From Flavobacteriales bacterium (GTDB taxonomy: Bacteria > Bacteroidota > Bacteroidia > Flavobacteriales_D > Crocinitomicaceae): a stretch of 64,000 bases of DNA. The translations under genes and the position numbers were made by a program. The notes below the pieces were generated by a model. The model saw only the letters and a list, made by a program, of their open reading frames with translations, did no database searches and was not told where the DNA came from. The stretch covers positions 1 to 64,000 of the forward strand of contig JABXHO010000004.1 of the NCBI GenBank assembly GCA_013373595.1, given 5' to 3'. Positions 58,166 through 62,060 of this stretch are shown here, piece after piece (positions within the stretch are counted from its first letter, which is position 1; every line of letters starts with the position of its first letter).

Positions 58166-58462
58166 TTACTTGAGCTTGGATGGATTTCTTCGGTTATCCC
58201 AGAATAATAGTAGCCGAATTCTTTTTTTACTTTCAATACGATAAAACAAAGTACTGTGAGGATGTATTACCGCTTTTCTTGTTGATTTGAGTTTTTTGCG
58301 CTCTGATTTGGGAAATGCTCTCGGGAATTCTCGAATGGAAGCAATAGTCTGAAAGGTTTGAACAACAAATTCAGCTTCTTCTTTTGGAGTGAATTTTTTA
58401 CAAATGTCTTTCCGGATTTTCAGATAAGATTTTTTCGCTCGCTCTCCCCAAACAATCTCCAT
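58166..58462 (-). CDS. RelE/ParE-superfamily toxin
   Basis: 98 residues with the family pattern I-V-W-G-E-R-A-K-K-S-Y-L-K-I, then KEEAEFVVQTFQTIASI, and the C-terminal strands with HSTLFYRIESKKRIRLLLFWDNRRNP. Basic and compact, as RelE/ParE toxins are. The 85-residue acidic protein starts 3 bases upstream and is its likely antitoxin. The toxin could cut mRNA on ribosomes or inhibit gyrase; a Y-R-I and terminal W-D-N-R-R favour the ParE/RelE fold but not one function. Confidence 0.85.
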   Translation of the reverse strand: MEIVWGERAKKSYLKIRKDICKKFTPKEEAEFVVQTFQTIASIREFPRAFPKSERKKLKSTRKAVIHPHSTLFYRIESKKRIRLLLFWDNRRNPSKLK

Positions 58463-58465
58463 TGA

Positions 58466-58723
58466 TTAGATATTAAGGTCAGGAAAATCTTTACGAGCTG
58501 CATTTAACATATCGTCATGGGAAGTTCCAATTTCTCCATTTTCTGCATCTTCAATACTTTGGATTAATTCGCTTAATATTTCAGGGGGAAGTTCGTCGGA
58601 CCAGTCAGAAGCATTTTCTCTCTTCAATGCACGCGCAAAACGAGTAAGTTTCGTGATGAAACTTTGGTCTTCTGATTCAATGATCATTTGAAGTAAATCT
58701 AGTTTGTTTTCTGCGGTGCTCAT
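58466..58723 (-). CDS. Cognate antitoxin of the RelE/ParE toxin
   Basis: 85 residues, acidic (many Glu and Asp), helical, without a recognisable DNA-binding domain. It lies 3 bases before the toxin and is read first, as usual for type II antitoxins. A TATCTTTG promoter element ends 4 bases before its ATG, predicting leaderless translation. The family is common in Bacteroidota but unnamed. Confidence 0.75.
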   Translation of the reverse strand: MSTAENKLDLLQMIIESEDQSFITKLTRFARALKRENASDWSDELPPEILSELIQSIEDAENGEIGTSHDDMLNAARKDFPDLNI

Positions 58724-58879: not shown

Positions 58880-60286
58880 ATGAAAAAAATGGCATTGCAC
58901 TGGAAAATTCTGATCGCTATGGCTCTCGGGGTCGTTTGGGCGTTCATGTCTGGAAAGTTTGGTTGGAATGATTTCACGGAAGATTGGATCGACCCTTTTG
59001 GAACAATATTTATCAATTCGCTGAAATTTATTGCGGTGCCCTTGGTGCTTTTCTCTATCATCACGGGGGTTGCAGGAATGGGAGATCCTTCTAAGCTTGG
59101 ACGAATGGGAGGGAAGACGCTTGGTTTGTATTTGATTACGACAGTTTTTTCGATCTCGATGGGGTTACTTCTTGTGAACTTGTTTTCTCCAGGAGTGCAG
59201 CATGATGAGGAAACACGATTGAAAAATCGACTTCAATACGAACTATGGGCAGAAGAAAGTGGTGTGGAGGTGAAAGACGGCCGACACGAGTTAGCCACTG
59301 CCACTCCCGAACAAATCAAAAATGCGAATTCGGAATTAGCGGCATTGAAAGACTCCAAGGAGTATAAAAAAGCTGAGGAGAAGCGCGAAAAAGCAAATGA
59401 AGCGAAAAAAGGTGATGGTCCATTGCAACCGTTAGTAGATATGGTTCCTGAAAATCTTGTGATTTCTTTGAGCGATGGACGTTTCATGTTACAAGTAATT
59501 TTCTTCGCGTTGTTTTTTGGTATTTCTCTGGCTTTTCTTCCGAAGGAAAAAACCAAAATGGTACACAGCTTTTTCGATGGTATGAATGAAGTCTTTGTGA
59601 AGATGGTACACATCATCATGAGGGCTGCGCCGTTTTTTGTTTTCTGTTTAATGGCAGGTGTTCTGGCTAAATCAGCGGATAGTCTTGATGAGCTCATTAG
59701 TATTTTCACCAAACTACTCGGCTATTCGCTTGCCGTTATTTTTGGACTTTCGGTCATGCTTTTTGGATTCTACCCATTATTCATGCGCATTTTTGGTGTG
59801 AAAATCAGTTACAGAAAGTTCTTCCAAGGGATGAGCCCAGCACAATTCTTAGCATTTTCTACCAGTTCAAGTGCTGCGACACTTCCCGTAACCATCGAAT
59901 GTGTAAATGAGAATTTGGGCGTTCCTGAAGAATCAACTGACTTTGTGTTGCCAATTGGCGCAACGGTGAACATGGATGGAACCTCACTCTATCAAGCGGT
60001 AGCGGTGATATTCTTGGCGCAATTTTTTGATGTTGATTTATCCATCATGCAGCAATTGGGAATTGTGGTAACAGCAACCTTGGCTTCCATTGGTGCTGCT
60101 GCCGTTCCTGGTGCAGGGTTGATCATGTTGATGATTGTTCTGGAATCCGTAGGATTGAACCCAATGTGGGTGGCAATTGTTTTGCCGATGGATCGCATCC
60201 TCGATATGTGTCGCACGGTGATTAACGTAACCAGTGATGCTTCTGTCTCAGCGATTATTGCGAAGTCGGAAAAAATGATGGATTGA
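58880..60286 (+). CDS. Dicarboxylate/amino acid:cation symporter (DAACS/GltP family)
   Basis: 468 residues, an inner-membrane Na+- or H+-driven carrier for glutamate, aspartate or C4-dicarboxylates. The signature serine-rich hairpin SxSSAATLP (FSTSSSAATLPVTIECV), NMDGTSLYQ, and MDRILDMCRTVINVTSD are intact. Between helices 3 and 4, about residues 105-182, sits an extra hydrophilic and coiled-coil-like stretch rich in Lys, Glu and Ala. This loop is longer than in E. coli GltP. A near-consensus promoter TATATTCA lies 4 bases before the ATG. Confidence 0.92.
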   Translation: MKKMALHWKILIAMALGVVWAFMSGKFGWNDFTEDWIDPFGTIFINSLKFIAVPLVLFSIITGVAGMGDPSKLGRMGGKTLGLYLITTVFSISMGLLLVNLFSPGVQHDEETRLKNRLQYELWAEESGVEVKDGRHELATATPEQIKNANSELAALKDSKEYKKAEEKREKANEAKKGDGPLQPLVDMVPENLVISLSDGRFMLQVIFFALFFGISLAFLPKEKTKMVHSFFDGMNEVFVKMVHIIMRAAPFFVFCLMAGVLAKSADSLDELISIFTKLLGYSLAVIFGLSVMLFGFYPLFMRIFGVKISYRKFFQGMSPAQFLAFSTSSSAATLPVTIECVNENLGVPEESTDFVLPIGATVNMDGTSLYQAVAVIFLAQFFDVDLSIMQQLGIVVTATLASIGAAAVPGAGLIMLMIVLESVGLNPMWVAIVLPMDRILDMCRTVINVTSDASVSAIIAKSEKMMD

Positions 60287-60449: not shown

Positions 60450-62060
60450 TTATTTGGTGGAGTTACAATCAAAGCGTTCAGATGGATAGTTGAGCGGTGC
60501 GTCCCAACCACTTGTAGAAATGGCAAGCGATGAATCGGCGTAAACGGATTGCATATAATAACCATAAATGGGAAGCGAGGCGCGTGCTCCTTGTCCCCAC
60601 AGCATCGAACGAAAGCGGACTTGTTTGTCCTCGCCACCTGTCCAGATTCCTGTTACTAAATCGGGTGTGATTCCAACGAACCACATATCGGCATTGCCTT
60701 GAGTTGTTCCGGCATAAGATGCAGTTGGATAGGTAATTCCTCCCCATTCTTCGTGCCAACGTAAACTGGTAGAAGTGCCGCTACGTGTTGTTGATTTCAT
60801 CAATTGAAGTACATCATGAGCAAATATTTCGTTGAGCACTTTTTTCGACTCTTTGACTGACTCATAAATTACATTTCCGTGCTTGTCTTCAATGCGACGG
60901 ATCGTTCGTGGAGTAACGTAGGTTCCTCCATTTGGAAAGATGGAACAAGCACTGGTGATCTCAATTAAAGACATATCTGGAGTTCCCAGGCAAATTGAAG
61001 GAACAATTTGCATTTCAGGAATAGTGATATTCATCTTCTGGAATAGGTCAGCGATGTTTTGTGGACCTTCGCAAGCGCCCATTTTGGACATGACAGAAAT
61101 GGTAGTTCCGCCTCCACTTGAAATGACAAAACCTTCTTTTACTGTTTTACTTGGTGTTCCAGAAGGGCACCAACGTTCTCCGCTTGGGTCGCAAGGATCC
61201 ATACAATATTGCTCGGGGCTTAATTTTGTACAAGGCTCAACAACTCCCATAGAAAATGCTGTGGCGTACGTAAACGGACGAATCAAGGAGCCAATTTGTC
61301 GCTTTCCTTGTCGCACATGATCAAATTTGAAATGATCATAATCAATGCCTCCTACCCATGCTTTGACCTCACCTGAGGCAGGCTCGATGGAAATCAATCC
61401 TGCGCGAATCATATTTTTCGCGTAGCGAATGGAATCGTTGGGTGTAAGAACGGTGTCAACTTCACCTTTCCAAGAAAAGAGTTGCATGCGTACGGGGACG
61501 TCAAAACTTTTCTCAATTTCACTCTCAGAATAACCGTTTGTTTTCAGGTTCACGTAACGATCGGATGATTTTCGAGCGCGCCGCATGATGTTTTCAATGG
61601 TTTCGTCTGTTACTTTTCGACCATTGTAAGTGTCGGCGAAAGGAAATCGTTTTACGGTTTGATTGTTTTTCGAAAAGGCAGGCTGAAGGTTCGTTGCCAG
61701 GTGTTTTTTGAGAGCTGCTTCGGCATGCGCTTGCAATTGCGGGTCGATAGTGGTGTATATTCTTAATTCGTCCTCGTACAGGTTGTATTTTTGCCCATTC
61801 TTTTTCCGACGGATATATCGTCCCTTTTTATCTTTTTGATCGAGAAGGGTTTTTACTTCTTCTCGAAGTGATTCACAAAAGTAGGGCGCTGTTTTGTAAC
61901 CGTCGAAAGAAAACGTTCCAAGCAGGGTCGTGTCATCGTCGGCATAAATTAGAGAGGGATGTATCACCTTTCGGTCAAGATCTTTTTCAGTTGAGTAGGA
62001 ACACATGACGAGAAGTGAAACAAGAAAAAGCAAGGAAGAAAGGTAGGTTGTGAGTTTCAT
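60450..62060 (-). CDS. Degenerate PBP1A-like protein without glycosyltransferase domain (putative pseudo-transpeptidase)
   Basis: 536 residues. A signal segment (1-20, ending LVMC) replaces the membrane anchor and GT51 glycosyltransferase domain of PBP1A. From KTAPYFCESLREEVKTLL onward the PBP1A order is kept: LRIYTTIDPQLQAHAEAALK, MQLFSWKGEVDTVLTPNDSI, GLISIEPASGEVKAWVGGID, DHVRQGKRQIG. The active-site motifs are altered: S258-L-I-R261 instead of S-x-x-K, S-S-G-G-G (314-318) where S-x-N is expected, and A450-G-T-T instead of K-T-G-T. Only the serine remains. It cannot be expected to crosslink; a structural or regulatory role in the envelope is likelier. It follows uvrA by 4 bases. Confidence 0.85.
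   Translation of the reverse strand: MKLTTYLSSLLFLVSLLVMCSYSTEKDLDRKVIHPSLIYADDDTTLLGTFSFDGYKTAPYFCESLREEVKTLLDQKDKKGRYIRRKKNGQKYNLYEDELRIYTTIDPQLQAHAEAALKKHLATNLQPAFSKNNQTVKRFPFADTYNGRKVTDETIENIMRRARKSSDRYVNLKTNGYSESEIEKSFDVPVRMQLFSWKGEVDTVLTPNDSIRYAKNMIRAGLISIEPASGEVKAWVGGIDYDHFKFDHVRQGKRQIGSLIRPFTYATAFSMGVVEPCTKLSPEQYCMDPCDPSGERWCPSGTPSKTVKEGFVISSGGGTTISVMSKMGACEGPQNIADLFQKMNITIPEMQIVPSICLGTPDMSLIEITSACSIFPNGGTYVTPRTIRRIEDKHGNVIYESVKESKKVLNEIFAHDVLQLMKSTTRSGTSTSLRWHEEWGGITYPTASYAGTTQGNADMWFVGITPDLVTGIWTGGEDKQVRFRSMLWGQGARASLPIYGYYMQSVYADSSLAISTSGWDAPLNYPSERFDCNSTK

Follow-up and report, generated by a model that had tools for sequence, protein, structure and literature searches.

A gene at positions 60450-62060 of the window (the whole 64,000-nucleotide stretch of DNA that we analysed) encodes a paralogue of the class A penicillin-binding protein (PBP) PBP1A that lacks the glycosyltransferase domain (GT51), sits directly behind uvrA and has altered residues at four of its seven catalytic positions. 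We tentatively read the window protein, at slightly under an even chance for the statement as a whole, as a maintained pseudoenzyme that would be anchored in the envelope and act in PBP1A complexes by binding or competition, and we hold any single choice of binding partner with less confidence than that. The copy has a narrow range of three species, and its history is well supported as evolution; the function proposed for it is more tentative.

A GT51-less copy of PBP1A behind uvrA

The window belongs to a 4.69 Mb genome (G000; 179 contigs, 99.92% complete) with seven matches to the transpeptidase profile PF00905, the window gene included. The frame at 60450-62060 on the minus strand opens with ATG and runs for 536 codons with zero internal stops, so the unbroken reading frame reported in a preliminary description of this DNA is present as described. 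The features of the gene and its flanks are as follows.

58880..60286, plus strand: sodium:dicarboxylate-type symporter gene, convergent to the copy
60450..62060, minus strand: coding sequence of the GT-less PBP1A paralogue, 536 aa (open reading frame and profile matches)
60453..61889, minus strand: residues 58-536, the linker and transpeptidase fold that follow the place of GT51 (alignment and model)
60708..60716, minus strand: KTG position, Y449-A450-G451 (alignment)
61110..61121, minus strand: SxN position, S314-S-G-G317, with Gly for Asn here and in both orthologues (alignment)
61278..61289, minus strand: SxxK position, S258-L-I-R261, Lys to Arg (alignment; also read on the DNA)
61890..61910, minus strand: junction, residues 51-57, with PBP1A residues 96 to ~352, including GT51, missing (alignment)
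61911..61955, minus strand: retained pre-GT51 strand, residues 36-50 (SLIYADDDTTLLGTF), aligned with PBP1A residues 81-95 (shuffle test and structural alignments)
62001..62060, minus strand: N-terminal signal, residues 1-20, ending in Cys20, in place of the PBP1A cytoplasmic tail and membrane helix
62065..64000, minus strand: uvrA (TIGR00630, 776 bits, above cut-off), directly upstream of the copy and extending beyond the window end

The sole Pfam match of the window protein is to PF00905 (E 5.6e-7, 29.5 bits against a cut-off of 22.1, profile positions 162-266 of 299), and the same Pfam search gave no match to GT51 (PF00912) and no signalling domain. Among the NCBIfam profiles, PBP_1a_fam (TIGR02074) scored 197.2 bits over residues 86-507, below its cut-off of 508.75, vs. 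21.8 bits for pbp2_mrdA. The second, intact PBP1A that the preliminary description had suggested looking for was found in the same genome on contig C112, with STMK, SSN and KTGTT motifs and with GT51 at residues 97-266; it shares 66% identity with window protein residues 57-533.

The GT-less form was present in three of the 34 genomes of the genus that we searched, the window genome among them; the other two are G248 and G315, the latter 72% complete, and the near-complete genomes without it include G276 (99%), G242 (98%) and G232 (98%). A scan of genome_contigs with the window protein gave one relative, whose protein equals that of G248, and the two are counted once. Both orthologous frames are without breaks, and frame breaks in sister species are what the preliminary description had named as counting against its reading. 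Five further genomes of the genus (G288, G303, G304, G309 and G311) gave only broken matches in short frames. In each of them a GT51-like match, in a frame equal or close in length, stands on the contig where the broken match begins, so these were taken as cut PBP1A genes; the five assemblies may still have missed a GT-less copy. One such PBP1A (L057, G311:C278) is interrupted by a TAA and by a string of undetermined bases, probably a matter of assembly. In a search for GT-less copies across the phylum (118 genomes, 117 of them others; 117 of the 118 matched), every match listed other than the window gene lay in a frame of at least 712 codons, and in a search of 299 genomes of the order the only frames below 650 codons among the matches listed were those of G000 and G248, G315 being outside that sample.

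Reconstruction of the N-terminus places the missing domain inside the protein. Where the preliminary description had the glycosyltransferase domain replaced by an N-terminal signal, GT51 is indeed gone and a signal is indeed present, but GT51 was cut out internally, residues 36-50 still match PBP1A residues 81-95, and what the signal replaces is the tail and the membrane anchor. The excision removed ~250 residues, seven residues fill the place of PBP1A residues 96 to ~352, and the post-GT part restarts at PBP1A residue 353-354. Compared with three PBP1As, the strand at residues 36-50 of the window protein was equalled by 1, 1 and 2 of 2000 shuffles, the corresponding strand of the G248 orthologue by 0 of 2000 in all three comparisons and that of the G315 orthologue by 0, 1 and 0. 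The signal Cys stands at residue 20 in the window protein and at residue 21 in both orthologues; a loose lipobox pattern, which we take to be of the PROSITE type, is matched by G248 and G315 and not by the window protein, in which Met precedes the Cys, whilst a strict pattern is matched by none of the three.

An AlphaFold2 model made from 31 rows (mean pLDDT 86, pTM 0.86) was compared with known structures. The 50 best of 687 Foldseek matches were all PBPs by title, and VIA-align superposed the model on the PBP1a entry 4oon with a Z of 40.4 (2.8 Å over 377 residues); from the model we infer that the window protein would fold as a class A transpeptidase. Most full-length class A entries align with the model from residue 32-36 onwards, where the retained pre-GT strand lies, and this carries little weight because the ranges give the first and last aligned residue only. 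The class B entries 6un1 and 4wej, which have no GT51, also start at model residue 33.

The copy directly follows uvrA in all three genomes that carry it, with 4 bases between the uvrA stop and the ATG of the copy in the window and a 4-base overlap in G248 and G315. G224 and G226, which are without the copy, have a convergent symporter homologue directly after uvrA (in G226 by eye), an arrangement that looks like an empty site. In G315 a symporter-type gene remains beyond one further open-reading frame, and in G248 a different gene follows the copy. Beside the symporter gene the window also holds a ParE-type toxin gene (58166-58723, minus strand; PF05016, E 2.7e-7), preceded by an 85-aa open-reading frame without a Pfam match that is perhaps an antitoxin.

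A midpoint-rooted tree was built from 36 rows, three GT-less and 33 full-length, including five full-length ones that do not belong to the genus, with G224, of the 37 rows picked, and the five broken-match genomes left out. The three GT-less proteins form one clade (support 100/100), and a further fork (94/97, not starred) unites this clade with the PBP1As of these three species alone; within that fork the G000 PBP1A, the pair of G248 and G315 PBP1As and the GT-less clade form an open trichotomy. G248 and G315 pair with each other both within the GT-less clade (93/86) and among the PBP1As (98/94). Descent of the window protein from PBP1A is read from the nesting of its clade among the PBP1As of the genus, in a tree that holds no FtsI or MrdA rows. 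The shared place behind uvrA, taken together with the tree, points to one duplication before the three species parted, and the sequences fit a single duplication of PBP1A to this place in their common ancestor. Recent gene conversion with PBP1A left no sign: third-position identity to the PBP1A of the genome is 41% across residues 57-536, and no 30-residue block exceeds 57%.

The transpeptidase site

Class A PBPs require S-x-x-K, S-x-N and K-T-G. The motif positions in the window protein were set by its alignment to 28 full-length PBP1A rows, in an alignment of 31 rows from which five of the 33 full-length rows (G301, G270, G187, G153 and G091) were omitted. At the seven catalytic positions the window protein keeps S258, S314 and G451 and carries K261R, N317G, K449Y and T450A. 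The SLIR and SSGGG readings of the preliminary description are borne out, but the lost KTG lysine corresponds to Tyr449 and not to A450, and its statement that all but one transpeptidase residue had been lost was too strong, as three of the seven canonical residues remain. Neither KTG nor KSG occurs anywhere in the window protein, and its single SxxK is at residue 23, right after the signal. The protein deviates at 24 of the 173 positions that are the same in 27 or all 28 of the rows, vs. four of the seven catalytic ones, an over-representation with a hypergeometric P of 0.008 in a test that was made after the motifs had been seen.

The three GT-less proteins differ from one another in how much of the site they keep. 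The SxN Asn is Gly in all three and Asn in 28 of 28 full-length rows; the loop has an extra one-residue insertion in the window protein, and because none of the three has an Asn in the loop, its loss does not depend on the alignment. At the SxxK position the orthologues of G248 and G315 read STIK and SAMK, both keep KTG, and that of G315 has Gln at the position of S314. The SxxK serine (Ser258) is retained in all three by the motif comparison, and both lysines, of SxxK and of KTG, are lost in the window protein only. Near-total catalytic loss as a settled trait of the lineage is not supported, since the orthologues keep SxxK and KTG and just the SxN Asn is gone from all three. Judged from the aligned sequences, loss of the active site was stepwise, with the Asn lost in all three and both lysines later in the window lineage. 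At eleven positions of the shared region the GT-less proteins all carry the same residue, one that occurs in none of the 28 full-length rows; these private residues fit constraints of the GT-less proteins' own, and the shared stem alone could yield the same.

The kept residues bear on whether the copy is an altered enzyme, with a pocket that still acylates slowly or hydrolyses some other ester or peptide, and with orthologues that may be monofunctional D,D-peptidases, lacking a glycosyltransferase domain but still able to bind penicillin. The retention of Ser258 in all three, the SxxK and KTG of G248 and G315, and the 82, 83 and 95% identity of residues 446-505 around KTG in the three orthologue pairs all fit such an enzyme. 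Against it stand the Gly that has replaced the SxN Asn of every PBP1A row and, in the window protein, the missing KTG and a lone SxxK that lies behind the signal; on balance we consider an altered enzyme unlikely. Elsewhere in the same genome, a class D beta-lactamase-like protein (L003:1342-2178, G000:C52; NF012161, 241.4 bits where the cut-off is 250) carries STFK and KTG and, by eye, a lipoprotein-like signal.

Selection on the copy

Codon models were fitted to ten rows and 475 gap-free codons, with the GT-less clade fixed as sister to the three PBP1As, a placement that is open in the tree. A single omega for all branches was 0.056, and two classes gave 0.053 for PBP1A and 0.081 for the copy, an improvement of only 3.7 in 2dlnL, which narrowly misses the usual 5% level. 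When four classes were fitted with free branch lengths, omega was 0.053 for PBP1A, 0.198 on the stem of the copy, 0.085 on the G248 and G315 branches and 0.03 on the window branch, this last value resting on a saturated dS of ~5. Tying dS on each copy branch to the dS of its own species' PBP1A gave an omega of 0.043 for PBP1A, with 0.33 on the stem, 0.116 on the G248 and G315 branches and 0.147 on the window branch (upper 95% limit just under 0.20), in a fit that was worse by 19 log units (lnL -10648.6 vs. -10629.4). The window-branch estimate varies fivefold between the fits, because dS is saturated when lengths are free and the tied fit is the worse one.

With free dS, an omega of 1 was rejected by a 2dlnL of 44.9 for the window branch and 335.0 for the orthologue branches, and with tied dS by 122.4 and 525.5, respectively, so the dN/dS check proposed in the preliminary description came out on the side of constraint. 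On the stem it was not rejected with free dS (2dlnL 2.5) and was rejected with tied dS (11.7). Constraint on the copy is not lost. How far it has weakened depends on the fit: about threefold with tied dS, and with free dS by 1.6-fold for the orthologue branches and by nothing for the window branch. In amino acids the copy changes faster than PBP1A, with end branches of 0.5 (window), 0.24 and 0.19 vs. 0.093, 0.087 and 0.052 for the PBP1As. After an unselected divergence of 0.05 per site, a frame of this kind would be free of stops with P 0.026 (indels not counted). An ordinary pseudogene is rejected for most of the history of the gene by the omega tests and this stop expectation.

Decay in progress is a narrower proposal, in which the copy was useful in the ancestor and in the sister species and selection ended recently in the window species, where both lysines were then lost. 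The lysine loss confined to the window lineage, the longest of the end branches, the lowest Pfam transpeptidase score (29.5 bits, where the orthologues score 61.2 and 43.4 and PBP1A scores 68.3) and the disappearance of the small residue before the Cys are all what such decay would leave; yet the window-branch omega lies well below 1 and the stop-free frame leaves little room. We think decay quite improbable as the general explanation, though selection may have ended very recently, over a shorter stretch, in the window species.

Possible function and known systems

The history that the data support begins with duplication of the PBP1A gene to the place behind uvrA in an ancestor shared by the three species, which belong to one Crocinitomicaceae-type genus. 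The copy lost GT51 by internal deletion whilst keeping the strand before it, carries a short signal with Cys at 20/21 where PBP1A has its cytoplasmic tail and membrane helix, and is without the SxN Asn; both catalytic lysines were lost later, in the window lineage, and purifying selection acted on the copy along the window and orthologue branches. Such a copy would have a transpeptidase-like fold and an envelope location, probably lipid-anchored at least in the two orthologues, and the window protein, going by its motifs, would perform no transpeptidation and act by binding. Its most likely partners may be a partner of PBP1A, PBP1A itself or peptidoglycan stem peptides, through which it could tune or compete with intact PBP1A.

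Preservation in three species suggests that the copy was recruited for a job free of catalysis. The maintained pseudoenzyme beside an intact PBP1A that the preliminary description had put forward keeps its footing in the purifying selection and the unbroken orthologues, but its near-total catalytic loss is not lineage-wide and the term pseudoenzyme may not fit the orthologues, which keep SxxK and KTG. The neighbours, uvrA and a symporter, also speak against this reading, as do the small number of sequences (three), the faster evolution than in PBP1A, the spread of the window-branch omega between fits and the mismatch of the window protein's signal to the loose lipobox pattern.

The copy could instead be a beta-lactam or muropeptide sensor, with a pocket that binds its ligand without turnover and signals. 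BlaR1 and MecR1 are the precedent for beta-lactam sensors, the surroundings of the pocket motifs are conserved though catalysis is broken, and on its other side uvrA is flanked by a sigma-70-type gene. This gene is not linked to the copy, since a similar-looking sigma gene (by eye) also lies beyond uvrA in G276, which has no copy; Pfam recognised no signalling domain; and with both lysines missing, the beta-lactam sensor floated in the preliminary description is unlikely, in the window protein, to work by acylation. A sensor therefore seems to us a poor prospect. A degenerate, stand-alone GT51-like protein of 198-201 aa (G000:C92:4204-4797; L098, L010:1492-2094) has a hydrophobic N-terminal stretch and the C-terminal half of GT51 only (PF00912 positions 94-175 of 178, E 7.4e-14; PBP_1a_fam positions 84-158), its other half being unrecognised; a close homologue (43%, in a 206-codon frame) occurs in G276 only of the 34 genomes. 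A split synthase with its glycosyltransferase half elsewhere was rejected, as the sole close homologue of this protein is in G276 and not in G248 or G315.

Returning to a binding partner in PBP1A complexes, a bolder form of this reading is that the synthase has yielded its own regulator, the GT-less PBP1A copy, with its stepwise dismantled site and a new signal holding it in the envelope, acting in trans on intact PBP1A or its partners, Lpo-like in Bacteroidota. We regard this as conceivable but doubtful. Class A PBPs are drug targets, and to our knowledge their regulation outside Proteobacteria is poorly known. Within the genus the intact parent exists beside two copies that have lost the Asn and one that has lost the lysines as well, and this three-species series offers a direct way to test what a transpeptidase fold does once catalysis is gone, and whether a synthase can give rise to its own regulator.

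No natural GT-less class A PBP pseudoenzyme was reported among the titles and abstract starts listed in our search of mostly open-access literature, which is weak evidence of absence. PBP1A is the parent, with 66% identity over residues 57-533, the same transpeptidase fold and linker and the pre-GT strand in common; unlike it, the window protein has no GT51, no cytoplasmic tail or membrane helix, and changes at four of seven catalytic residues. Class B PBPs resemble the window protein in having the transpeptidase fold without GT51, but the window protein derives from PBP1A, not FtsI or MrdA, and its motifs are broken. By analogy, the proposed mode would be similar to that of LpoA and LpoB of E. 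coli PBP1A and PBP1B, envelope lipoproteins that act on a class A PBP. When overexpressed and exported to the periplasm of E. coli, the ODD part of PBP1A is described as titrating LpoA away (PMC3060616), and the same paper gives LpoA and its docking region as limited to gamma-proteobacteria and LpoB to enterobacteria. Catalytically dead B. subtilis PBP2B S309A is described as supporting division, PBP3 then being essential (PMC5656894); it is like the window protein in having a structural role without catalysis and differs in being a laboratory mutant. The trypanosome prozyme is a dead paralogue described as activating its enzyme (PMC5201418), and so offers a case of a dead paralogue that regulates an active one, although, unlike the window protein, it belongs to an unrelated enzyme.
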